Source: a virus
Virus record (IMG/VR): IMGVR_UViG_3300030382_000726
Coordinates: 1 to 23,216 of that record
DNA: 23,216 nucleotides
Reading direction: 5' to 3' (one strand)
In this document: piece by piece, positions 2,883-21,962 of the stretch
How positions within the stretch are numbered: the first letter of the stretch is position 1
Layout of the letters: every line of letters begins with the position of its first letter
The notes under the pieces: model-generated
The model's input: the letters and a program-made list of their open reading frames with translations, nothing else
Database searches by the model: none
What the model was told of the DNA's origin: nothing
Made by a program: the position numbers and the translations under genes

Positions 2883-3077
2883 ATGTTTGTTAATAAAAAA
2901 ACCAAATTAGAAAGACTAAGTATATGTAAAAGTTGTAATATGTATCGCAACTTTATGTTACTTAGAAAGCCAATAATAACAATAGGGTCAAGGTGTGCAG
3001 AATGTAAGTGTTTCCTAGATGCAAAAACATCTTTGACAAAAGAGTTTTTTGGGAAATGCCCTTTAAATAAATGGTAA
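2883..3077 (+). CDS. Small Cys-rich zinc-ribbon-like protein
   Basis: A 64-residue basic protein with paired cysteines C15/C18 (ICKSC), C38/C41/C43 (CAECKC) and C59 (KCPLNKW). The spacing suggests one or two zinc sites. Short proteins with CxxC, CxxCxC and a C-terminal CPLxKW motif recur between tail and head genes of Bacteroidetes phages, generally with unknown role. It sits 9 bases after the membrane gene and 10 before the next gene, in a tight operon. Metal binding is inferred from cysteine spacing; no catalytic motif is seen. Confidence 0.75.
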   Translation: MFVNKKTKLERLSICKSCNMYRNFMLLRKPIITIGSRCAECKCFLDAKTSLTKEFFGKCPLNKW

Positions 3078-6819: not shown

Positions 6820-8086
6820 TACTTTTGAATTTGGGGTATTTAACTTAGCCATACCTGAACATATTGAAGAACCTTTAGACTTATCAAGAATAAGAACTAA
6901 GTTTATTCCTTTTGGAACAAACAATCTCTTTCCACAATACTTAGCAGAATTAAAAAGAAAGTCATCTACACATAGAAGTGTACTTGCACAGAAAACGATA
7001 TTCACAAGTGGGGCTAAGTTTGTTACAGGTAATGACGATTTAAAAGAATACATTAAAGATGTTAATGCTGATGGTGAAACATTAAGAGATGTCTTTAAGA
7101 AAATAGCAGATGATTACTATACATTTGGCAATGCTTATGTAGAGGGAGTGTTATATGATGGAGGGTTAAACCTATATCACTTAGACGCTACAACTGTTAG
7201 GATGTCTAAAAACAAAAAAGAAGTATATGTACATCCAGACTGGGCGAAGTACAATACTATGAAAGACAAATTGTCTATCATGCCTATATATCCAAATGTA
7301 AGCAGTAATAGATTTGTAATTCAATTTAAAGATTATGAGCCTACTTTTACTTTTTATGGTTTGCCAGATTATGTAGCTGCACTAGAGCATATTGCAGTTG
7401 ACTATGAAATTGGCAAATGGAATCATACTAAGTTTAAGAATGGGTTTCAACCTTCAGCAATCGTAGAGATTAGTGGAGATATGGGTGAGAAGGAAGCAAA
7501 AGAATTAGTAAGAGAAGCCCAAAAGAAATTTGTTGGGGATGGGAACAATGGTAAAGTAATGTTTATAGTTAAAAATGGTGATACTTCACCTGCTAATGTA
7601 AGCATCATTAAAGACGACCAAGAAGGAAGTTGGATAGATTTACAACGAATAACTGACCAAAATATTGTAACAGCACACAGGTGGCAACCATCTTTGAGTG
7701 GTTTAGTATCAAGTGGTAAAATGAATAATACTGGAAGTGAGATTAGAATTGCTTATGACTTAGCAATGACTACAGTAATTAAAGACACTTCTGATATGAT
7801 ACTTAATGTTCTTAAAAAAATATTATTTAAAGAATTAGGGTTTTCACCTGAAGATTTATTAATACAATACGAACCACCAATTAGTTTTGCTACTCAAATT
7901 GACCCTGCAAAAGTGCTTACTATAAACGAACAAAGAAGAATGTTAGATGAAGACTTGCCAATGTTAGAGGAAGGCAATATGTTTATAACAGATAGAGAAC
8001 AAATTATAGTAACAAGAGATGATGAAGATGGTAATGATGAAGACGCAAGTTTACAAGTAACTGAAACAGACACAAACAACGAATAA
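6770..8086 (+). CDS. Phage portal protein
   Basis: A 438-residue protein with portal-like segments: PFGTNNLFPQYLAELKRKSS near residue 48, then SVLAQKTIFTSGAKFV, then FKKIADDYYTFGNAYVEG and LDATTVRM, which match the stem/wing region of siphovirus portal proteins. The C-terminal 40 residues are acidic and probably disordered. The portal forms the dodecameric DNA gate at one capsid vertex. ATG 6770 is the only Met in a reasonable position and lies inside the previous gene. Portal genes usually lie upstream of protease and capsid, so this downstream location is unusual. Confidence 0.8.
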   Translation: MSQRKQTRKSQVKAKTNTFEFGVFNLAIPEHIEEPLDLSRIRTKFIPFGTNNLFPQYLAELKRKSSTHRSVLAQKTIFTSGAKFVTGNDDLKEYIKDVNADGETLRDVFKKIADDYYTFGNAYVEGVLYDGGLNLYHLDATTVRMSKNKKEVYVHPDWAKYNTMKDKLSIMPIYPNVSSNRFVIQFKDYEPTFTFYGLPDYVAALEHIAVDYEIGKWNHTKFKNGFQPSAIVEISGDMGEKEAKELVREAQKKFVGDGNNGKVMFIVKNGDTSPANVSIIKDDQEGSWIDLQRITDQNIVTAHRWQPSLSGLVSSGKMNNTGSEIRIAYDLAMTTVIKDTSDMILNVLKKILFKELGFSPEDLLIQYEPPISFATQIDPAKVLTINEQRRMLDEDLPMLEEGNMFITDREQIIVTRDDEDGNDEDASLQVTETDTNNE

Positions 8087-14509: not shown

Positions 14510-14812
14510 ATGAACTACGAAAATTGGCATAAAGCAACTTATCAAAACTGTGATGACCCAACAGTATGGAATGGTACAAACCCTTCTTGTAAACTTTGTG
14601 AGAAAGAAATAGAGCCACATGACGAATATTGTGAAGACCACCAAAGATGTATTATATGTGGAGATAATGATGATTGTGGATGTCAGGAGGAGTTCAGCCA
14701 ACTAAGTGGTTGTTGTGAAAAAAAATTTATACCTGAAACACAAAGGTGTTCAAGGTGCAATGAAACTGCTTCATCTTCTTGGGAAGATGCAGTAGATAAT
14801 TGTAAAAACTAA
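14510..14812 (+). CDS. Cys-rich multi-zinc-finger protein
   Basis: A 100-residue acidic protein with many paired cysteines: CKLC (27/30), C41 with H44, CIIC (47/50), CGC (56/58), CC (68/69) and CSRC (80/83). The spacing suggests two or three zinc knuckles or ribbons. Both acidic overall charge and zinc fingers point to protein-protein or RNA polymerase interaction as much as to DNA binding. I know no named family for it. It lies in the early operon before an HTH gene. Confidence 0.7.
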   Translation: MNYENWHKATYQNCDDPTVWNGTNPSCKLCEKEIEPHDEYCEDHQRCIICGDNDDCGCQEEFSQLSGCCEKKFIPETQRCSRCNETASSSWEDAVDNCKN

Positions 14813-14835
14813 CTATTAACTAAAACTATTTAAAA

Positions 14836-15066
14836 ATGACTAAAACACAAACGAGTGATATTCTACAACACTTAAAAGATGGTAGAAGATTAACACAGAA
14901 AGAAGCAATTAATATGTATGGTGCTTATAGATTGTCAAGCATTATTTATGGCTTGAGAAAGCAAGGTCATGATATTGTTTCAATACCTGTAGAAGTACCA
15001 ACAAGATATATGAAAATGGATGGTACTAAAAGAATGGCTAATATTGTTGAATATAAATATATTTAG
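14836..15066 (+). CDS. Helix-turn-helix protein (HTH_39-like)
   Basis: A 76-residue protein. Residues about 4-50 match the phage HTH_39 pattern (QTSDILQHLKDGRRLTQKEA, then YGAYRLSSIIYGLRKQGHDI), a compact winged HTH. A C-terminal wing (IPVEVPTRYM, IVEYKYI) completes the domain. Such proteins are frequent beside recombination genes in phages of Gram-negatives and probably act as small DNA-binding regulators. The next gene starts 2 bases after its stop. Confidence 0.8.
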   Translation: MTKTQTSDILQHLKDGRRLTQKEAINMYGAYRLSSIIYGLRKQGHDIVSIPVEVPTRYMKMDGTKRMANIVEYKYI

Positions 15067-15068
15067 TC

Positions 15069-15572
15069 ATGGGAAAAATGAAACAGCTTTACGAAGAACA
15101 ACAGAATAGTAATCAATTAAACAATAATAAAATGAGTAGAAAAACAAAAAAACAAGAAGAACAAGTTGAAACAATCCCTGAAACTAGGGAGGATGCTTTA
15201 AGAAGATTATTCAAAGAGAATAGTCTAGTTAAAGAAGATATATACAAAGACAAGAGAGGATTTGTAATTATCACTAGGTCTGGTATAGACAAGATTGTAA
15301 GCAAGAAGGGAATAACTGTTGCTTATGAGCCAGTAGTAATGGACTTAGATAAAACTCATGTAGTTTTAAAAGCAGTTGCTAACATGAAAGTTGGTAAAAC
15401 TGAAGTAAGGAACATGATGAGTTTTGGAGAAGCATCTGATGACAATCTAATGGGAGGTGGTAAAAAGTTCCCAGTAGCAATGGCAGAAAAAAGAGCAATG
15501 AGTAGAGTTGTTCTTAAAATTGCAGGGTTCTATGAGCATGGAGTGTTTGGACAAGATGAGATAGTGGATTAA
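15069..15572 (+). CDS. Putative single-strand annealing / recombination protein
   Basis: A 167-residue protein. The core has a beta-rich middle (DIYKDKRGFVIITRSGIDKI, AYEPVVMDLDKTHVVLKAVA) and a C-terminal motif PVAMAEKRAMSRVVLKIAGF resembling the conserved end of Erf/Rad52-like and related single-strand annealing proteins. It lies upstream of SSB and replication genes, which fits. ATG 15069 gives a Gln/Asn-rich N-terminus; ATG 15132 (residue 22) follows a leader-like AATTAAACAATAATAAA and may be the true start. Fold membership is inference. Confidence 0.55.
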   Translation: MGKMKQLYEEQQNSNQLNNNKMSRKTKKQEEQVETIPETREDALRRLFKENSLVKEDIYKDKRGFVIITRSGIDKIVSKKGITVAYEPVVMDLDKTHVVLKAVANMKVGKTEVRNMMSFGEASDDNLMGGGKKFPVAMAEKRAMSRVVLKIAGFYEHGVFGQDEIVD

Positions 15573-15838
15573 TGTCTGAAGACTGGTTAGATAATATTCT
15601 TGATGGTGAACCAACGCCTATTACATATAGGCAGTTGGTCATCATTGAGAGTATGATTGATAGGACAGCTATATGTTTAAGTGAAAAATCAAAGATACTA
15701 ACAAATTTAAACAACTATACAGAATTAGAAGCTGAAGAAATTATTAAAGAAATACTTGAAAATGAAATCAAAACAGACCCAAAAGACCAATGGAAAGAAA
15801 TGTTCAAATCAGGAATGTTTAATGATAAACCTGTATGA
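15572..15838 (+). CDS. Hypothetical early protein
   Basis: An 88-residue acidic helical protein whose ATG overlaps the preceding TAA by one base (TAATG), showing translational coupling. Segments: DGEPTPITYRQLVIIESMID and ELEAEEIIKEILENEIKTDP, then WKEMFKSGMF at the C-terminus. The layout resembles small accessory proteins beside recombination proteins in phages, but I recognise no family. Confidence 0.65.
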   Translation: MSEDWLDNILDGEPTPITYRQLVIIESMIDRTAICLSEKSKILTNLNNYTELEAEEIIKEILENEIKTDPKDQWKEMFKSGMFNDKPV

Positions 15839-16031
15839 ACACTTTTCAAAACCACACAGCTTTATCGCTTGGAATGGAGATAATTTATTAGGAGAAGTTA
15901 TTGAGGATGATATAATGAAAATTCTTAATAAAGAACAAGTGATAGATTTATACCACAGGGGTAAAAGTAAATTTAAAGTATGTTGTAATAAGATGAATAA
16001 GTTTTTAATCAAGCCAGATAACCATGACTAA
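15822..16031 (+). CDS. Hypothetical small protein
   Basis: A 69-residue protein starting MINLYEHFSKPHSFIAWNGD, with a basic C-terminal half (KSKFKVCCNKMNKFLIKP). I chose ATG 15822, which overlaps the previous gene by 17 bases, rather than the upstream ATG at 15756, because the extra 22 residues lie wholly inside the neighbouring gene and are Lys/Gln low-complexity. Function is not recognised. Confidence 0.5.
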   Translation: MINLYEHFSKPHSFIAWNGDNLLGEVIEDDIMKILNKEQVIDLYHRGKSKFKVCCNKMNKFLIKPDNHD

Positions 16032-16266
16032 CAAGTATTCAATGGTACAAATCAGAGAATCACGAAATGAATTTGAAGCATTGCTTAGGATTTATGGTGT
16101 ATCTAACCTGAAACTGTGCAGGATAATGAGGGTTAATCCTGCGACAAGTGCAAAATATATTAAAGACCCTACTTTAATTAGATTCGTTCATGCTAACAGA
16201 TTGGCAGAATTTATTGGATTAAAAGTACAAGATGTAGTTGATACAATAGTGTATGACTTAACTTAA
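16024..16266 (+). CDS. HTH DNA-binding protein (Cro/XRE-like)
   Basis: An 80-residue protein with a helix-turn-helix pattern at about 16-60: FEALLRIYGVSNLKLCRIMR, then NPATSAKYIKDPTLIRFVHA. The turn after GVS and the second helix fit Cro/XRE-type DNA binders of phages. Size is close to a minimal Cro. It might regulate the early promoter, whose upstream region carries palindromes. It overlaps its neighbour by 8 bases. Confidence 0.6.
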   Translation: MTNKYSMVQIRESRNEFEALLRIYGVSNLKLCRIMRVNPATSAKYIKDPTLIRFVHANRLAEFIGLKVQDVVDTIVYDLT

Positions 16267-16276
16267 AAACAAAAAC

Positions 16277-16753
16277 ATGGATAAAAAAACAAAAAAGAAA
16301 ATAGCGTATCAATTAATATTCAGCGAATCTTATAGCGATATAATCCTTAATGAGATAGCAGATATATATGATGTGGATAAAAACATAGTATTTAAAGGTA
16401 GTAGAAAGAAAAACATTATAAACGCTAAAAGAATGTTCATTTATATTTTAAGAAATATTTTTGGGCTAACTCTTTATGAAATAGCAGAAATAACTAACTT
16501 GCATCATGCTTCAGTAATACATCACAATAGAAAGTTTGAATTTTTTTATGGTAAGTATATAGAAGATACTGATATTTTTAAAAGAGTTGAAGCTAAGATA
16601 TTGTCTGTAGAGATTGATGAAATGATTAGAGTATTAGAATTAAAAAACAAAGAGATAAATAAAGAATTAACTAAATTGTATAACATAAAAAATCAAAAAT
16701 ATGTCAGAAAAGAAAGAAAAGATTTACTTGCCAAGCAGTATAAAAGAGATTAA
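16277..16753 (+). CDS. DnaA domain IV-like DNA-binding protein
   Basis: A 158-residue protein. Residues about 25-88 match the C-terminal DNA-binding domain of DnaA: VFKGSRKKNIINAKRMFIYI, then LRNIFGLTLYEIAEITNLHH and ASVIHHNRKF. The signature DHxTV of DnaA is replaced by HHASV. No AAA+ ATPase region is present. The C-terminal 70 residues are a Lys/Glu-rich helix. Such stand-alone domains occur in Bacteroidetes phages and probably recognise the phage or host origin. The iteron-rich region at 19701-20015 is an obvious candidate target. Confidence 0.8.
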   Translation: MDKKTKKKIAYQLIFSESYSDIILNEIADIYDVDKNIVFKGSRKKNIINAKRMFIYILRNIFGLTLYEIAEITNLHHASVIHHNRKFEFFYGKYIEDTDIFKRVEAKILSVEIDEMIRVLELKNKEINKELTKLYNIKNQKYVRKERKDLLAKQYKRD

Positions 16754-16955
16754 AACTAAATACGGAACAATGATTGTTGCTAATCTTAAAATTGATGACC
16801 TTCAAGCAAACTCAAAGAATGGTTGGATTTCAATGGTCATATCAGAAAGGAGAGAACCATCTGAAAAGGGGGCTACTCACTATGCTTATGTGAATGATTA
16901 CAAGCCTAAAGAAACTGTTGAAACTAAAAAAGATGATGACGATTTACCATTCTAA
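16701..16955 (+). CDS. Mini single-stranded DNA-binding protein with SSB-type C-terminal tip
   Basis: An 84-residue protein. Residues about 8-68 look like a small OB fold (YLPSSIKEIKTKYGTMIVAN, WISMVISERREP, GATHYAYVNDY). A short acidic linker ends in DDDDLPF, closely resembling the SSB C-terminal peptide (DDDIPF) that recruits replication and repair proteins. This suggests a phage SSB able to dock host partners. It is half the length of bacterial SSB. It overlaps the preceding gene by 53 bases in another frame, which is unusual, but the leader at ATG 16701 is good. Confidence 0.75.
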   Translation: MSEKKEKIYLPSSIKEIKTKYGTMIVANLKIDDLQANSKNGWISMVISERREPSEKGATHYAYVNDYKPKETVETKKDDDDLPF

Positions 16956-17109
16956 TGGCGTTGGTATAATAAGCATTATATTTTTATGTGTTTTGTTTGG
17001 AAGTATTTTAGGTGGTTTATTTATTTTCTATATACAAAAAAGATATATAGATAATTTAGAGAAAGAATTAGATTGTAAGAATAAAATAATTAACGATTAC
17101 AGTTTATAA
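16933..17109 (+). CDS. Small single-TM membrane protein
   Basis: A 58-residue protein starting MMTIYHSNGVGIISIIFLCV, with one strong TM helix (about 10-33) followed by a charged helix (YIDNLEKELDCKNKI). An upstream ATG at 16894 is possible, but the extra residues lie within the SSB gene and read as low-complexity. The gene overlaps the SSB end by 23 bases and ends on the first base of the next ATG. The role is unknown. Confidence 0.5.
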   Translation: MMTIYHSNGVGIISIIFLCVLFGSILGGLFIFYIQKRYIDNLEKELDCKNKIINDYSL

Positions 17110-17747
17110 TGAAACAACCAAATTACTATGCTATTATATCTGCTGAGGTTAGATATGATAAAAATTTAACACCTCATGCTAAATTATTATATGCAGAGAT
17201 TACAGCACTACTTAACATGAATGGAGAATGTTTTGCCACTAACAGATATTTCTCAGAACTTTATGGTAAGAGTGTTGTAACAATCTCTAAATGGATTAGT
17301 GAGTTGGTTGCAAATGGTTATGTGTCAACAACTTATACCTATAGGGAGGGTACTAAAGAAATTGATAGGAGGTATATAAGAATTATTAAAGGGGGTATTA
17401 AAGAAAAAGACAAGGAGGGTATTAAAGAAAAGTTTAAGGATAATAATACTAAGGTTAATAATAATATTACATATAGTAATAATAAGGGTCGCTTTAAAAA
17501 ACCAAGTATTAATGAAATTAATGATTATTGTTTAAAAAGAAAAAACACTATAGATGGCGAAACTTTTTTTGATTTTTATGAAAGTAAAGATTGGAAGATT
17601 GGAAAAACAAAAATGAAAGACTGGAAGGCTTGTGTTAGGACTTGGGAAAAAAGACAGAGTAAAAATGTAAAAGGAATGAGTAAGGTTCACATGCACTTAA
17701 ACTCACACTTACAAGCAAAAGAATTACTTAAAAAACAAAGGCAATGA
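17109..17747 (+). CDS. Replication organizer-like protein (winged HTH plus C-terminal domain)
   Basis: A 212-residue protein. Residues about 5-75 are a winged HTH of the HTH_36 type (YDKNLTPHAKLLYAEITALL, then TNRYFSELYGKSVVTISKWI). A low-complexity linker (90-130) contains a tandem 24-bp DNA repeat encoding GIKEKxK. The C-terminal part (FFDFYESKDWKIGKTKMKDW, then KACVRTWEKRQ) matches the conserved tail of phage replication proteins of the organizer/helicase-loader class. It probably binds the origin and recruits the helicase. It overlaps both neighbours by 1-4 bases. Confidence 0.75.
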   Translation: MKQPNYYAIISAEVRYDKNLTPHAKLLYAEITALLNMNGECFATNRYFSELYGKSVVTISKWISELVANGYVSTTYTYREGTKEIDRRYIRIIKGGIKEKDKEGIKEKFKDNNTKVNNNITYSNNKGRFKKPSINEINDYCLKRKNTIDGETFFDFYESKDWKIGKTKMKDWKACVRTWEKRQSKNVKGMSKVHMHLNSHLQAKELLKKQRQ

Positions 17748-18106
17748 TTAAACACAAAACAAAAGAACAATTAGAGGACTTGTGCTTGGAACTGCTAAGT
17801 AAAACATATATTGAGTTAGGACAGCACAATGTAGAAGCAGAAACTAAAGTTATTATGGCTCAAAGTTTAGCTGATGATTTAAGAAAAACTTATAAGAATT
17901 TTTATTTCTCAGATGCAGAAAATGCTTTTAACATTGGAGTAAGGAGTCAGCATAATGGAGATTTTATTCACTTAAATGTTCCTACATACATGAGGTGGTT
18001 AAGAAAACATAAGGATTTAATATGGGATGCAAGAGCCAAAGTTGATAGAGGTGATGACCCTAAGTCAGTTCCTTATTACCGACCAGAACCAAAATTATTA
18101 AAATAA
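17744..18106 (+). CDS. Replication-module hypothetical protein
   Basis: A 120-residue helical protein coupled to the organizer gene (ATGA overlap). The conserved-looking segments YFSDAENAFNIGVRSQHNGD and LNVPTYMRWLRKHKDLIWDA recur beside replication genes in Bacteroidetes phages. That adjacency suggests a helicase-loading or primase-associated accessory protein. No nucleotide-binding motif is present. Function is contextual only. Confidence 0.65.
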   Translation: MIKHKTKEQLEDLCLELLSKTYIELGQHNVEAETKVIMAQSLADDLRKTYKNFYFSDAENAFNIGVRSQHNGDFIHLNVPTYMRWLRKHKDLIWDARAKVDRGDDPKSVPYYRPEPKLLK

Positions 18107-18114
18107 ATATATAT

Positions 18115-18315
18115 ATGGATTACTTAACATTCCTAAAAAGAAACAAGATGCACCATTCCAACAGATGGATTGTAAAATATTCTGAAGACAAAGTTAGAGA
18201 AGTCAAATTAATATTTAATCCAGAGGAATATCGTAAAATGAAAAAGAGAAGACCTTTACATACACAAAAAGGATTAATTAAAATACTAGAGAAAGATAAA
18301 AACAAAAAACAATGA
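18115..18315 (+). CDS. Small basic hypothetical protein
   Basis: A 66-residue, strongly basic protein (MDYLTFLKRNKMHHSNRWIV, then EEYRKMKKRRPLHTQKGLIK) with no recognised motif. Charge and size fit a nucleic-acid-binding accessory protein. Its stop overlaps the next start by 4 bases. Confidence 0.6.
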   Translation: MDYLTFLKRNKMHHSNRWIVKYSEDKVREVKLIFNPEEYRKMKKRRPLHTQKGLIKILEKDKNKKQ

Positions 18316-18497
18316 AATTAAGTTATTTTATTTTATGTATTGTTTTTGTTGTTTTTTTTATTAAGTTTTTTATACATTGCTGCGAAATAAGATTATGTAA
18401 AAAATCGCATAAGAAGTTTGTAAAAAACGTAAATCAATATAAAAACACTATTGCAGGGGCATTAGAAAATGACAGAATCAATGACAAAACACAGTAA
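18312..18497 (+). CDS. Small membrane-anchored protein
   Basis: A 61-residue protein with an N-terminal TM helix (about 4-26, LSYFILCIVFVVFFIKFF) and a basic tail (CKKSHKKFVKNVNQYK). Its start overlaps the previous stop, and its end overlaps the next gene by 29 bases. The role is unknown. Confidence 0.6.
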   Translation: MKLSYFILCIVFVVFFIKFFIHCCEIRLCKKSHKKFVKNVNQYKNTIAGALENDRINDKTQ

Positions 18498-18813
18498 ATA
18501 TTACTACGAATTTAACAGAAATATGAGTACAACAGCAAAGATTAATCCAAAAATGTTTTTATCTAAAGAAGAATTAAAAGGAATAGATTATTCTAAAGAA
18601 AAAACCCCTTCTTATTATGTTGGTAAAACTTATGGCTATGAAGCACGAAAGGTTGTAGAAGATTTTAACTTATCTTATAATGTAGGAACATCAGTTACAT
18701 ACTTACTTAGGGCGGATAATAAGCACAACAATCCTATTGATTGCATACAAAAAGCAATTAATCATCTTGAGTTTGAATTAGATAAGATAAAAAATGAGAA
18801 AGCCAATCTTTAG
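18469..18813 (+). CDS. DUF3310 family protein (SaV-like)
   Basis: A 114-residue protein. The C-terminal 65 residues fit DUF3310: YGYEARKVVEDFNLSYNVGT, then SVTYLLRADNKHNNPIDCIQ and KAINHLEFEL. The family is widespread in phages near nucleotide-metabolism or replication genes and has no firmly known activity. Alternative starts at 18481 and 18523 are possible, since the first 20 residues look unconserved. It overlaps both neighbours. Confidence 0.75.
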   Translation: MTESMTKHSKYYYEFNRNMSTTAKINPKMFLSKEELKGIDYSKEKTPSYYVGKTYGYEARKVVEDFNLSYNVGTSVTYLLRADNKHNNPIDCIQKAINHLEFELDKIKNEKANL

Positions 18814-19036
18814 AGTATTCGTTAACTACACTATAAGTAGCAAAAAAAGAGTTAGAAAAACTAAAGGAAGTATAGATACTTTTGTTCTTACTGACGATAT
18901 TAATGAGATGAAGAAAGATAAGGATTTAATAAACAGGATATGTTATCTTAATAAAAGAAAACCTGAAGATGTTGAGATTATAATAGATAGTGTTGAGATT
19001 GAAAATCAATATGGAGAAACAACAGATAGATTTTAA
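18794..19036 (+). CDS. Hypothetical early protein
   Basis: An 80-residue alpha/beta protein, MRKPIFRVFVNYTISSKKRV then TFVLTDDINEMKKDKDLINR and DVEIIIDSVEIENQYG. Two beta strands flanking a helix suggest a compact ferredoxin-like fold, but I recognise no family. It overlaps the DUF3310 gene by 20 bases and is followed 2 bases later by an HTH gene. Confidence 0.6.
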   Translation: MRKPIFRVFVNYTISSKKRVRKTKGSIDTFVLTDDINEMKKDKDLINRICYLNKRKPEDVEIIIDSVEIENQYGETTDRF

Positions 19037-19038
19037 TT

Positions 19039-19335
19039 ATGCCAAAGATTAGAAAAATAAAATTAGAAGACAGAAAAGATATGAGGGGTGGAGGATATTC
19101 CAGAAGAAAGTTTAGTGCTGAAGAAGTAGATGTTATAAGAAAAGAATATGCTACAACCACAGAGAAAGTAACTATATCTGCTCTTGCCAGAAAATACAAT
19201 GTATCACAACCATTAATGTATCAATTAATTAAAGGTACAACCTACAATGAGGGGGATGTAGGGGGTATAGGGGGTACAGGAGGGTATGGGGGTACAAGGC
19301 GTAGGAGAGGTTCTGTTTACAATCATAACAAATGA
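19039..19335 (+). CDS. HTH protein with Gly-rich tail
   Basis: A 98-residue protein. Residues about 25-65 form a resolvase/Hin-like HTH (FSAEEVDVIRKEYATTTEKV, then SALARKYNVSQPLMYQLIKG). The last third is Gly-rich (DVGGIGGTGGYGGTRRRRG) and is encoded by a run of G tracts unlike any other coding sequence in the window. The HTH probably binds DNA; the tail looks flexible. It overlaps the nuclease gene by 4 bases. Confidence 0.75.
   Translation: MPKIRKIKLEDRKDMRGGGYSRRKFSAEEVDVIRKEYATTTEKVTISALARKYNVSQPLMYQLIKGTTYNEGDVGGIGGTGGYGGTRRRRGSVYNHNK
19251..19292 (+). other. G-quadruplex motif in coding strand
   Basis: Five G tracts, G5 (19251), G5 (19261), G5 (19270), G3 (19282) and G5 (19288), are separated by loops of 5, 4, 7 and 3 bases. 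This meets the classical G3+N1-7 rule with one tract to spare, in DNA that is otherwise about 70% A/T. The G-rich strand is the mRNA-like strand, so both DNA and RNA quadruplexes are possible. Confidence 0.85.
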
Positions 19336-19679
19336 AACAAGAAGCATTAGTTCAGTCTGCTTTTTGTACTTACCTTAAATATAACTACCCTAAAATAAGA
19401 TACTGTGCATCATTGGGTGGCATAAGAACATCCATGAAACAAGCTATACTAGCCAAAAAGACTGGCTATGTTAAAGGCTTTCCAGATATGCAGATACTTA
19501 AAGTCAACCATAAGTATGGTGGGTTATTCCTAGAAATCAAAGCAGACAAGAAGTGTTATCCATCCAAAGAACAGAAAGAATGGGTGGAATACCTCAACGA
19601 AGCAGGTTACTTTGCTAAGGTTGTTAAAGGACTTGATGAGTGTATCGAAATTGTTGATTGGTATTTAAAAATTCCATAA
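19332..19679 (+). CDS. VRR-NUC domain nuclease
   Basis: A 115-residue protein filling a VRR-NUC domain: QEALVQSAFCTYLK, KGFPDMQILK with Asp52, GLFLEIKADK with Glu68 and Lys70, and SKEQKEWVEYLNEAGYFAKV with Gln81, then a helix (ECIEIVDWYL). This is the PD-(D/E)xK nuclease fold; phage members are thought to process branched DNA, such as Holliday junctions. It closes the DNA-metabolism operon and directly borders the origin-like region. Confidence 0.88.
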   Translation: MKQEALVQSAFCTYLKYNYPKIRYCASLGGIRTSMKQAILAKKTGYVKGFPDMQILKVNHKYGGLFLEIKADKKCYPSKEQKEWVEYLNEAGYFAKVVKGLDECIEIVDWYLKIP

Positions 19680-19700
19680 TAAAATATTCTTATTATTTTT

Positions 19701-19741
19701 TGAAACTGCCTTGAAACTGCCCTGAAACTGCTGAAACTGCC
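19701..19741 (+). repeat. Four TGAAACTGC direct repeats (iteron-like)
   Basis: Copies of TGAAACTGC start at 19701, 19712, 19723 and 19732; three are followed by C. Spacings of 11, 11 and 9 bp keep sites on about one helix face. They lie in a 477-base gene-free stretch right after the nuclease gene. Iterons of this kind typically bind an initiator protein. Confidence 0.85.
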
Positions 19742-19944
19742 AGATATTTTAATAGGTAGGGGTGTTAAGAGGTGTGGGGAGGTCGTGAGATTTTGACAAA
19801 AATACAAATTTTGTTGAATATATCAAAACATTTTATTTGTTTTTTATTAACGAATTTTTGTTAATATCTTTTTTTAACAAATATTGTTTTTTTGTTGGCT
19901 ATTTAAAATATTTTGTTATCGCGTACATATATATATATTAGAAC
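19742..19944 (+). other. AT-rich gene-free stretch, candidate unwinding element
   Basis: A short G-rich piece (19755-19782: GG, GGGG, GG, GGGG, GG) is followed by about 150 bases that are almost entirely A/T. It contains inverted repeats ATTAAC/GTTAAT (19846-19865) and AACAA/TTGTT (19876-19888) and an alternating AT run (19926-19938). No ORF is present. It sits between two repeat clusters, as a DNA unwinding element would. Confidence 0.55.
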
Positions 19945-20015
19945 GACCAAAAAACGACCATAAAAAAAGACACTTTCCCACACTAGAAGACCAAAAAACG
20001 ACCAAAAAACGACCA
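19945..20015 (+). repeat. Phased GACC/A-tract repeats
   Basis: GACC occurs at 19945, 19956, 19989, 20000 and 20011, each followed by A-rich tracts (usually A6 then CGACC). The spacings are 11, 33, 11 and 11 bp, all multiples of 11. A larger unit, about 25 bp, is repeated 55 bp apart (19945 and 20000). Phased A6 tracts predict intrinsic DNA bending. Confidence 0.85.
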
Positions 20016-20095
20016 TAAAAAAACACATCATTTTAAAAAAAATACAAAAAATGTTAATTCTTCTCTAGTAAAATCAATATAAAAGTTTTTAACTA

Positions 20096-20130
20096 TTTGT
20101 TGTATAATGTTAAAATGTTTCTTATATTAG
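20096..20130 (+). promoter_or_regulatory. Possible promoter for the small-gene array
   Basis: TTG (20100-20102, or TTTG at 20096-20099) precedes TATATTAG (20123-20130), one mismatch from TAnnTTTG, with spacers of 20 or 23 bases. It lies 27 bases before the first gene of the array and downstream of the origin-like repeats. Confidence 0.4.
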
Positions 20131-20156
20131 CATTATAATAATTAAAACAAAAAACA

Positions 20157-20381
20157 ATGACAACAACAGAAATTAAAAAAGTAGAGTTAACAGCGTCAGA
20201 CTTAAGAATGATTAGATTGGCTATAAATGATAAAATATCTGCAGAACTAACAAAAGAAACAAACAGTCACTTATATAGGAGTAACAGGATTAAAGGACTA
20301 GAAAAGGCTTATGACAAAATAACAGATTTATTATTTTATAATAAAGAAGAACTAGAAATTATCTTAAAAAATAGAGATTAA
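20157..20381 (+). CDS. Small hypothetical protein, first of the array
   Basis: A 74-residue charged helical protein (VELTASDLRMIRLAINDKIS, then RIKGLEKAYDKITDLL). The leader AATTAAAACAAAAAACA is shared with other genes of the array. Its last two codons and stop (GAT TAA) form the 5' strand of stem I of the hammerhead ribozyme, so the ribozyme begins inside this gene. Function is not recognised. Confidence 0.65.
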   Translation: MTTTEIKKVELTASDLRMIRLAINDKISAELTKETNSHLYRSNRIKGLEKAYDKITDLLFYNKEELEIILKNRD

Positions 20382-20425
20382 CTGAAGAGTCTTCAATAGA
20401 CGAAACGCTGTGAAGCGTCTTAATC
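20376..20425 (+). ncRNA. Hammerhead ribozyme (open stem I)
   Basis: Every core element is present in order. Stem I strand GATTAA (20376-20381), core CTGAAGA (20382-20388), stem II GTCT/AGAC (20389-20392 with 20398-20401) with a 5-base loop, core GAA (20402-20404), stem III ACGCT/AGCGT (20405-20409 with 20414-20418) with a GTGA loop, cleavage base C20419, then stem I strand TTAATC (20420-20425), which pairs perfectly with the first strand. The invariant A15.1-U16.1 pair and a GUC cleavage triplet are seen. Self-cleavage after 20419 would free the downstream gene's mRNA with a 5'-OH. Cleavage itself is predicted, not shown. Confidence 0.92.
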
Positions 20426-20440
20426 AAAAAACAAAAAACA

Positions 20441-20641
20441 ATGAAAAAAGCAACCACAACAATTACAGAAAGAGATTATATTGTTATCAGCAAGGGATTA
20501 GCCCATTTGATAAGCGAATATAAAAACGATAAAAAAATTGACAAAAAATATATCAAAGAGATTGAAGAATTGAAATATAGACTAGTAAAACCATTTAATG
20601 GAATATCAATGAATAATTCAATAAATAAAAACACCCCTTAA
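20441..20641 (+). CDS. Small hypothetical protein after the ribozyme
   Basis: A 66-residue protein (MKKATTTITERDYIVISKGL, helical middle EYKNDKKIDKKYIKEIEELK). The ribozyme would leave it a 21-base leader (20420-20440) of mostly A with ATG at the end. It is basic and helical with no recognised motif. The next array gene begins 29 bases after its stop. Confidence 0.6.
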   Translation: MKKATTTITERDYIVISKGLAHLISEYKNDKKIDKKYIKEIEELKYRLVKPFNGISMNNSINKNTP

Positions 20642-20670
20642 GTAAATATTAATAATTAAAACAAAAAACA

Positions 20671-20943
20671 ATGAGAACGAACAGAGAAATTCAAAAAGAA
20701 ATAGAAGAACTAAAAGAACTAGACAGAATAACGACAATAAAAATAAATCAAGAATTTAAAGATAGAGCAGAGAAAGAAAAAACAGCAGATCAGACGATAA
20801 AAGAAGAAAAAGAAGAGGAAGAAAGGCAAAGGCTAAACGATTTATTTAATTGTTTTGCTCAAGCTCAATTAGAAACAATAAAAGAAACAGAAGAAACAAA
20901 AGATTTTGACAGAAGACTAAAACAATTTATTAACAAACTATAA
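20671..20943 (+). CDS. Small coiled-coil hypothetical protein
   Basis: A 90-residue, very Glu/Lys-rich protein predicted to be one long helix (EIQKEIEELKELDRITTIKI; KEEKEEEERQRLNDLF). The leader TAATTAAAACAAAAAACA is almost identical to that of the first array gene. Possible dimerising or anti-host factor; no family recognised. Confidence 0.6.
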   Translation: MRTNREIQKEIEELKELDRITTIKINQEFKDRAEKEKTADQTIKEEKEEEERQRLNDLFNCFAQAQLETIKETEETKDFDRRLKQFINKL

Positions 20944-20953
20944 AACAAAAAAA

Positions 20954-21247
20954 ATGGAAACAATCACTAAAGACAAAGCAAAAGAATTAATAAAAAAAAG
21001 CAATAATAAAATATTTACGGCTGAGTTTATAAAAAAAGATGGTACTCATAGATTAATGAACGCAAGACTTGGAGTAAAAAAAGGATTAAAAGAAAATGCA
21101 AAGCCACAACCATACGAGCCGAGCAAATACGGCTTAATATGCGTGTACGATATGCAAGTAAATAATTATAGAATGATAAATATAAATACGCTTTTAAAAT
21201 TAAATATTAATAAAACTAAATACAAAATAGAGAGATTACCTTTTTAA
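20954..21247 (+). CDS. SH3 beta-barrel-like phage protein
   Basis: A 97-residue protein with the pattern KIFTAEFIKKDGTHRLMNAR, LGVKKGLK, then YGLICVYDMQVNNYRMININ and TLLKLNINKTKYKIE. Proteins of this pattern are annotated in Bacteroides phages and crAss-like genomes as SH3 beta-barrel fold-containing. Their role is unknown but they are frequent in early regions. The leader is A-rich. This is the one array gene for which I recall relatives. Confidence 0.7.
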   Translation: METITKDKAKELIKKSNNKIFTAEFIKKDGTHRLMNARLGVKKGLKENAKPQPYEPSKYGLICVYDMQVNNYRMININTLLKLNINKTKYKIERLPF

Positions 21248-21266: not shown

Positions 21267-21575
21267 ATGAAAGCATACGAAATAAAAAACTATAGACAAA
21301 TTAAAGTCAAATACATAGGACCGACAAATCACAGAGGTTCAAGAATTTGCATCTATGAGCCAAAGCGATACAATGACGACACAACAAAAAGAATTTATTT
21401 ATCTTATGATTATGCAATAGGAGATGTTCAGCAACAAGCATTTGAATATTTGATAAGTAAAGGATTTAAAGTAATTTGCAGAGCATCAGAATTTGAAAAT
21501 TATTTATTCTTTGTTGATAATTGGGCAGAAGATTTTAAAGAGATAGACACGGGAAAAATAAGAGAATACAAATAA
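21267..21575 (+). CDS. Hypothetical protein found in mobile Bacteroidetes DNA
   Basis: A 102-residue alpha/beta protein (MKAYEIKNYRQIKVKYIGPT, then KRIYLSYDYAIGDVQQQAFE, YLISKGFKVICRASEF). The motif of a conserved GPTNxRGSRI loop followed by an SYDY helix reminds me of small proteins seen on Bacteroidetes plasmids and phages that modulate gene expression, without a known mechanism. It starts 19 bases after the SH3-like gene. Confidence 0.6.
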   Translation: MKAYEIKNYRQIKVKYIGPTNHRGSRICIYEPKRYNDDTTKRIYLSYDYAIGDVQQQAFEYLISKGFKVICRASEFENYLFFVDNWAEDFKEIDTGKIREYK

Positions 21576-21725: not shown

Positions 21726-21962
21726 ATGAAAACAAAAGAATTAAATAAAATTACAAAACGACTAGAAGAACTAGAACTACAGTTAAGGGATGACTATGGA
21801 CTCACTAAGATTAGCGGTGGCTTTGTACATATAGATATGCAAGATTATGATAATAATTATATATATCTAACAATTAAGGATGGGATACAAAACGACTGTA
21901 CAAATAAAGTTAATCAAGAAGAACAAAAACTAAACAGAAAAACTTTAGAATTTAACAATTAA
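21726..21962 (+). CDS. Small hypothetical protein
   Basis: A 78-residue acidic protein (MKTKELNKITKRLEELELQL, then FVHIDMQDYDNNYIYLTIKD). A coiled-coil N-terminus precedes a beta-like segment. It lies between two copies of the leader repeat, and its last codons and stop overlap the second copy. No family recognised. Confidence 0.6.
   Translation: MKTKELNKITKRLEELELQLRDDYGLTKISGGFVHIDMQDYDNNYIYLTIKDGIQNDCTNKVNQEEQKLNRKTLEFNN

Follow-up and report, generated by a model that had tools for sequence, protein, structure and literature searches.

Hammerhead ribozymes of prophages were described by Perreault et al. 2011 (PMC3088659), whose main text reports clusters of them on either side of one gene or a short block of genes and proposes that they process long phage transcripts. 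Phage-type members cleave in vitro and one cluster does so also in E. coli, according to the same text (PMC3088659). Neither the kind of element nor the processing idea is new for phages. A 2017 review (PMC6155905) regards the role of hammerheads in phages and prokaryotes as an open question.

The element considered here is an unusually clean example. It lies between two phage genes of the same direction, on their coding strand, in a stretch of viral DNA of 23,216 nt, analysed as a whole and referred to as the window. A sequence-only reading had proposed a complete type I hammerhead ribozyme, and at the level of sequence this identity is confirmed: the core (C3 U4 G5 A6 N7 G8 A9, G12 A13 A14, the A15.1-U16.1 pair and H17) is present in full, and three helices of 6, 4 and 5 bp pair with zero mismatches, II and III being closed by loops and I open (Table 1). 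The structure and coordinates given in that reading, including all invariant nucleotides and the stem I that spans the upstream stop codon, were found exactly in the sequence. Its predicted cut and the 21-nt leader up to the ATG at 20441 likewise stand on the sequence, and the type I assignment on the sense strand of a small-gene operon holds by core, stems and covariance-model score. The open end of stem I is flanked by A20375 and A20426-A20427. An Rfam search and a pattern scan returned no further ribozyme or hammerhead type elsewhere in the window.

Table 1. Coordinates of the hammerhead and its parts, of the surrounding operon and of the counterpart in Cellulophaga phage phi19:3 (window positions unless a record is named).
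Feature	Position	Strand	Remark
Candidate Bacteroidota-type promoter, TTTG-N23-TATATTAG	20096-20130	+	near consensus TTTG/TAnnTTTG; pattern match only
Upstream gene (gene 1), 74 aa	20157-20381	+	no recognised family or relative
Hammerhead ribozyme, type I	20376-20425	+	
Stem I 5′ strand, GATTAA	20376-20381	+	final TAA (20379-20381) is the upstream gene's stop
Core CUGAAGA, C3 to A9	20382-20388	+	G8 is 20387
Stem II, GUCU (20389-20392) with AGAC (20398-20401)	20389-20401	+	loop UCAAU (20393-20397)
Core GAA, G12 to A14	20402-20404	+	
Stem III, ACGCU (20405-20409) with AGCGU (20414-20418)	20405-20418	+	GUGA loop; includes A15.1-U16.1
C17	20419	+	cut predicted 3′ of C17 (20419/20420), from the hammerhead consensus
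Stem I 3′ strand, TTAATC	20420-20425	+	closing pair G20376-C20425
Leader, A-rich, 21 nt	20420-20440	+	5′-OH expected after predicted cleavage
Downstream gene (gene 2), 66 aa	20441-20641	+	no recognised family or relative
Small gene of operon (gene 3)	20671-20943	+	co-directional
Small gene of operon, WYL_2-like	20954-21247	+	co-directional
Small gene of operon	21267-21575	+	co-directional
phi19:3 hammerhead	NC_021789.1 (L317) 21767-21819	complement	cognate 5′-OH end predicted at record position 21774

The two proteins flanking the ribozyme found no relatives in viral contigs, and the neighbouring genes gave no match to a defence-related function. At the DNA level the surrounding 5-kb region has no similarity to isolate phages, whose matches were all remote and confined to portal, capsid and nuclease, and no relative of the window phage was found among prophages in bacterial genomes. 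Since a Shine-Dalgarno-like motif occurs in only one of the 36 window genes (gene starts are A-rich), a promoter-like pattern precedes the operon and the portal is a remote match to that of a Nonlabens (Flavobacteriaceae) phage, the host is likely a member of Bacteroidota. With the candidate promoter just upstream, the label 'early' that had been given to the operon genes is plausible. A leader with its start codon (TAATAATTAAAACAAAAAACAATG) recurs nearly identically over 29 nt at gene 1 (20136-20164) and gene 3 (20650-20678), and a shorter variant lies before gene 2, just past the ribozyme (20428-20452); such repeats could serve the recombination of gene cassettes. Upstream of the operon are two 31-nt repeats of 97% identity (AACGACCAAAAAACGACCATAAAAAAA, 19942-19972 and 19997-20027).

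Relatives of the phage were gathered through the neighbouring VRR-NUC gene, giving 80 viral contigs of which 62 have at least 1 kb of sequence downstream. In the sequence covered, only two of the 80, L145 and L140, show a hammerhead in the corresponding place of the operon, and L129, 99% identical to the window over 14806-19741, has neither the ribozyme nor the two small genes, its operon starting with a homologue of the gene at 20671 behind a promoter-like sequence of its own; the ribozyme is therefore dispensable to the lineage. The L145 hammerhead occupies the first operon spacer, and its stem I contains the upstream gene's TAA. The L140 element is its homologue and has the same stem I and downstream flank; its stem III is longer, has another sequence throughout and nevertheless pairs, and its upstream stop lies about 12 nt before stem I. 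Judged by eye, the genes upstream of the ribozyme in L140, in L145 and in the window share no sequence relationship. The place in the operon is thus stable, and both cargo genes and ribozyme are gained and lost. The promoter-leader region (19990-20157) is about 70-80% conserved in nine relatives (L137, L144, L164, L167, L168, L179, L186, L190 and L205) and similarity to them ends around the start of gene 1, so that exchangeable first genes appear to sit behind a common promoter. The L140 hammerhead (6957-7079) has a 67-nt loop III with a further perfect hairpin (GGAGGTTGCAACCTC) in it, possibly an insertion inside the ribozyme loop, and a hammerhead match with a 51-nt loop II in L167 was judged to be due to chance. 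In L129, L140 and L145 the VRR-NUC gene is followed by a short repeat (GAAACTGCC) that differs from the 31-nt one of the window.

Viral contigs were also scanned for the pattern CUGANGAGUC...GACGAAAC...GUC, in which stem I is not required. At least 120 contigs matched, several of them with more than one copy. These matches, selected without regard to stem I, were used in place of covariation counts, because alignment rows had been chosen for pairing. A stem I of at least 5 bp was possible in 93 of the 112 non-redundant matches listed (mean with shuffled upstream partners, 3.75). The commonest geometry, with 6 bp in stem I, 4 bp in stem II and 5 nt in loop II (hereafter 6/4/5 geometry), is the window's own and was seen 39 times in a first sample, window included, and 34 times in a second, non-overlapping one, counted among the matches listed. 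Across these 73 listed hammerheads loop II reads U-N-A-N-U (UNANU): in the matches listed for the two samples, U stands at position 1 in 37/39 and 32/34, A at position 3 in 35/39 and 30/34, and U at position 5 in 37/39 and 32/34. The closing pair of stem I is G-C in 37/39 and 32/34, an A precedes the stem in 38/39 and 32/34 and another follows it in 37/39 and 32/34, again among the matches listed; the inner pairs of the stem are variable. UCAAU, the loop of the window, is the commonest loop II of this geometry among the phage hammerheads listed, and together with the G-C closing pair, the 5′ A and the 3′ AA it agrees with the conserved signature. The pattern points to a docking of loop II on the open end of stem I. 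It had been suggested that an open stem I might leave contact with stem II weak or absent; this is unsupported, the geometry of the window being the commonest among the phage type I hammerheads listed, with loop II and flanks conserved. Because the window carries every conserved loop II and flank feature, the worry over a missing loop-loop contact is probably unfounded.

Very likely, the ribozyme acts in cis to process the mRNA of a phage small-gene operon, in whose first spacer it lies, and self-cleavage at the first gene boundary, whether constitutive or translation-modulated, is the best-supported reading of the sequence. A processing site among tiny genes had been put forward at the outset as worth attention; it survives as the best-supported function and is not remarkable for phages (PMC3088659). 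The sequences themselves establish the motif, its conservation across the family, its strand and its position; from transcription to expression we infer the following course. The promoter just upstream of 20157 would give rise to a polycistronic RNA, of which the 44 nt past the first gene's stop would form stems II and III and, by pairing with the hexanucleotide that ends in that stop, stem I, docking of UCAAU on the open end of stem I aiding the fold. The RNA would then cut itself after C20419. Its 5′ product would be the mRNA of the first gene with a structured tail ending in a 2′,3′-cyclic phosphate, and its 3′ product the remaining operon with a 5′-OH and the short leader. Separate lifetimes and expression for the first gene and for the rest would be the likely outcome. 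Among the hammerheads listed, the next ATG that opens an ORF of at least 40 aa lies no more than 60 nt past the cut in 97/130 (random positions, 31%; opposite strand, 14/121), which speaks for such processing together with the stop-codon placement given below, the like arrangement in Cellulophaga phage phi19:3 and the cleavage of phage-type clusters (PMC3088659). The sub-threshold Rfam score, the rarity of the element among relatives and an equally stable competing fold count against this processing explanation, as would the transient melting of stem I by terminating ribosomes.

The same circumstance underlies an alternative in which cleavage is gated by termination. Ribosomes finishing the upstream gene would hold the ribozyme open, given the stop codon inside stem I or CUGA, so that it would act as a translation sensor instead of a constitutive scissor and cut mainly when the upstream gene is untranslated or after ribosome run-off. 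Its main support is the placement of stop codons in two independent samples. The upstream stop falls in stem I or at most 6 nt before it, or is the UGA of CUGA, in 79/129 matches listed for the first sample and 79/105 listed for the second, that is in 158 of the 234 phage type I hammerheads listed when pooled; for random positions the share is about 5%, and the opposite strand yields 4/114 and 7/98. Placement of the TAA is identical in Cellulophaga phage phi19:3, and L145 adds the stop inside its stem I. However, in genomes as compact as those of phages any spacer element would come to lie hard by a stop, and the control for stops consisted of random positions, not of matched intergenic spacers; compactness explains part of the bias and is less able to account for stops inside stem I or CUGA. 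Moreover, the stop is farther off in a sizeable minority, as in L140, and fast cleavage behind RNA polymerase could outrun the ribosomes. Gated cleavage is an unlikely alternative.

The placement itself appears to be a widespread phage habit, a general tendency that offers a specific, testable link to translation. The family-wide statistics of stop-codon overlap seem to be new here, stop codons being absent from the main text of Perreault et al. 2011 (PMC3088659). We would only tentatively go further and speculate that phage type I hammerheads are built around the preceding stop, with terminating ribosomes timing the self-cut of the mRNA, a proposition that we hold to be doubtful. If true, self-cleavage would be coupled to translation termination across phages, and about 70 nt would combine stop codon, mRNA 3′ end and next leader in one gene-boundary device.

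In another alternative the element would be mainly a spacer module, selfish or hitch-hiking, that travels with exchangeable cassettes of small genes and has little effect on expression. Its patchy presence, cargo genes that differ among relatives behind a shared promoter-leader region and the near-identical 29-nt leaders before genes 1 and 3 would be in line with this. Core, loop II and flanks are nevertheless strongly conserved across unrelated phages, and stem III pairing is kept between L140 and L145, both of which argue that activity is under selection; in addition, the bias in position and strand is tied to gene ends. We therefore consider a mainly selfish module quite improbable.

Self-cleavage at the gene boundary presupposes a genuine hammerhead, and here randomisation and covariance models bear on the case. 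Stems of at least 6, 4 and 5 bp appeared in 0/1,500 order-1 and 0/1,500 order-3 Markov windows searched on both strands, and even matches with 3, 3 and 3 bp numbered just 13 across all 3,000 randomised windows; with 0/3,000 windows equal to the real one, a chance motif is rejected. The covariance-model check suggested in the sequence-only reading comes out in favour of a hammerhead in substance, falling short at the Rfam cut-off. At curated thresholds Rfam returned nothing in the window. RF00163 (Hammerhead_1), the sole match at E ≤ 5, coincides exactly with the ribozyme and covers the model from end to end. It scores 26.8 bits (E = 0.0096 when the whole window is compared with every family, 2.3e-6 when it is compared with this family alone), which is below its gathering cut-off of 34 bits. 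A model (R1) made from 27 hammerheads, all from viral contigs other than the window, gave the ribozyme 70.3 bits (E = 5e-17), the second-best place reaching 10.4 bits. The 34-bit threshold serves curation and does not define the hammerhead fold: it recovers one of 35 scanner-defined type I hammerheads from 15 phage loci and misses the other 34. The Rfam shortfall reflects the model, which fits phage members of 6/4/5 geometry poorly, and since the threshold misses most of them their abundance is likely undercounted. The hammerhead fold has -11.2 kcal/mol against -11.3 kcal/mol for the minimum-energy fold, a competing alternative that is about equally stable, so that minimum-energy folding does not decide the matter. 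The score below the Rfam cut-off and the lack of a second hammerhead in the window might be read to mean that the hammerhead is degenerate or inactive, or resembles one by chance, and serves at most as a hairpin; this is highly implausible for an element with no core mutation, no stem mismatch, the R1 E-value above and no equal among the randomised windows.

Among described families, the element has the topology, core and cleavage site of RF00163 in common. The RAGATH-1 hammerhead (RF03152) has a similar core and matches weakly (20.5 bits, cut-off 56.3), and its extra upstream hairpin is absent from the window. Like the prophage hammerheads of Perreault et al. (PMC3088659), ours is flanked by small genes on the coding strand; unlike those clusters, it is single in a 23-kb fragment that is possibly incomplete, belongs to a phage lineage without an annotated close relative, and its cleavage is predicted. 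Hammerheads of the same class occur in the uncultured pelagiphage MedDCM-OCT-S35-C6 (L319, AP013542.1) at 847-912 and 2995-3059, both scoring below the Rfam threshold.

A cultured counterpart came from a 55-nt search of isolate phages, which led to Cellulophaga phage phi19:3 (83% identity over 54 nt). Its hammerhead, unannotated in record NC_021789.1, scores 50.8 bits with R1, and our literature search found no paper joining Cellulophaga with hammerhead ribozymes. The gene run that holds the hammerhead also has, about 1.4 kb further downstream, a pistol ribozyme above the Rfam threshold (20369-20436, complement). The phi19:3 element differs from that of the window in its 8-bp stem I, its 4-nt loop II, a stem III starting A-U-G and a 34-nt leader between the cut and gp050. 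As in the window, it fills a spacer between small genes and shows GATTAA-CUGA with a TAA stop, here that of gp051, ending stem I. The family-wide stop-codon tendency and this cultured twin are points worth follow-up, and phi19:3 on Cellulophaga baltica is a cultured phage-host pair that allows a direct test of processing.
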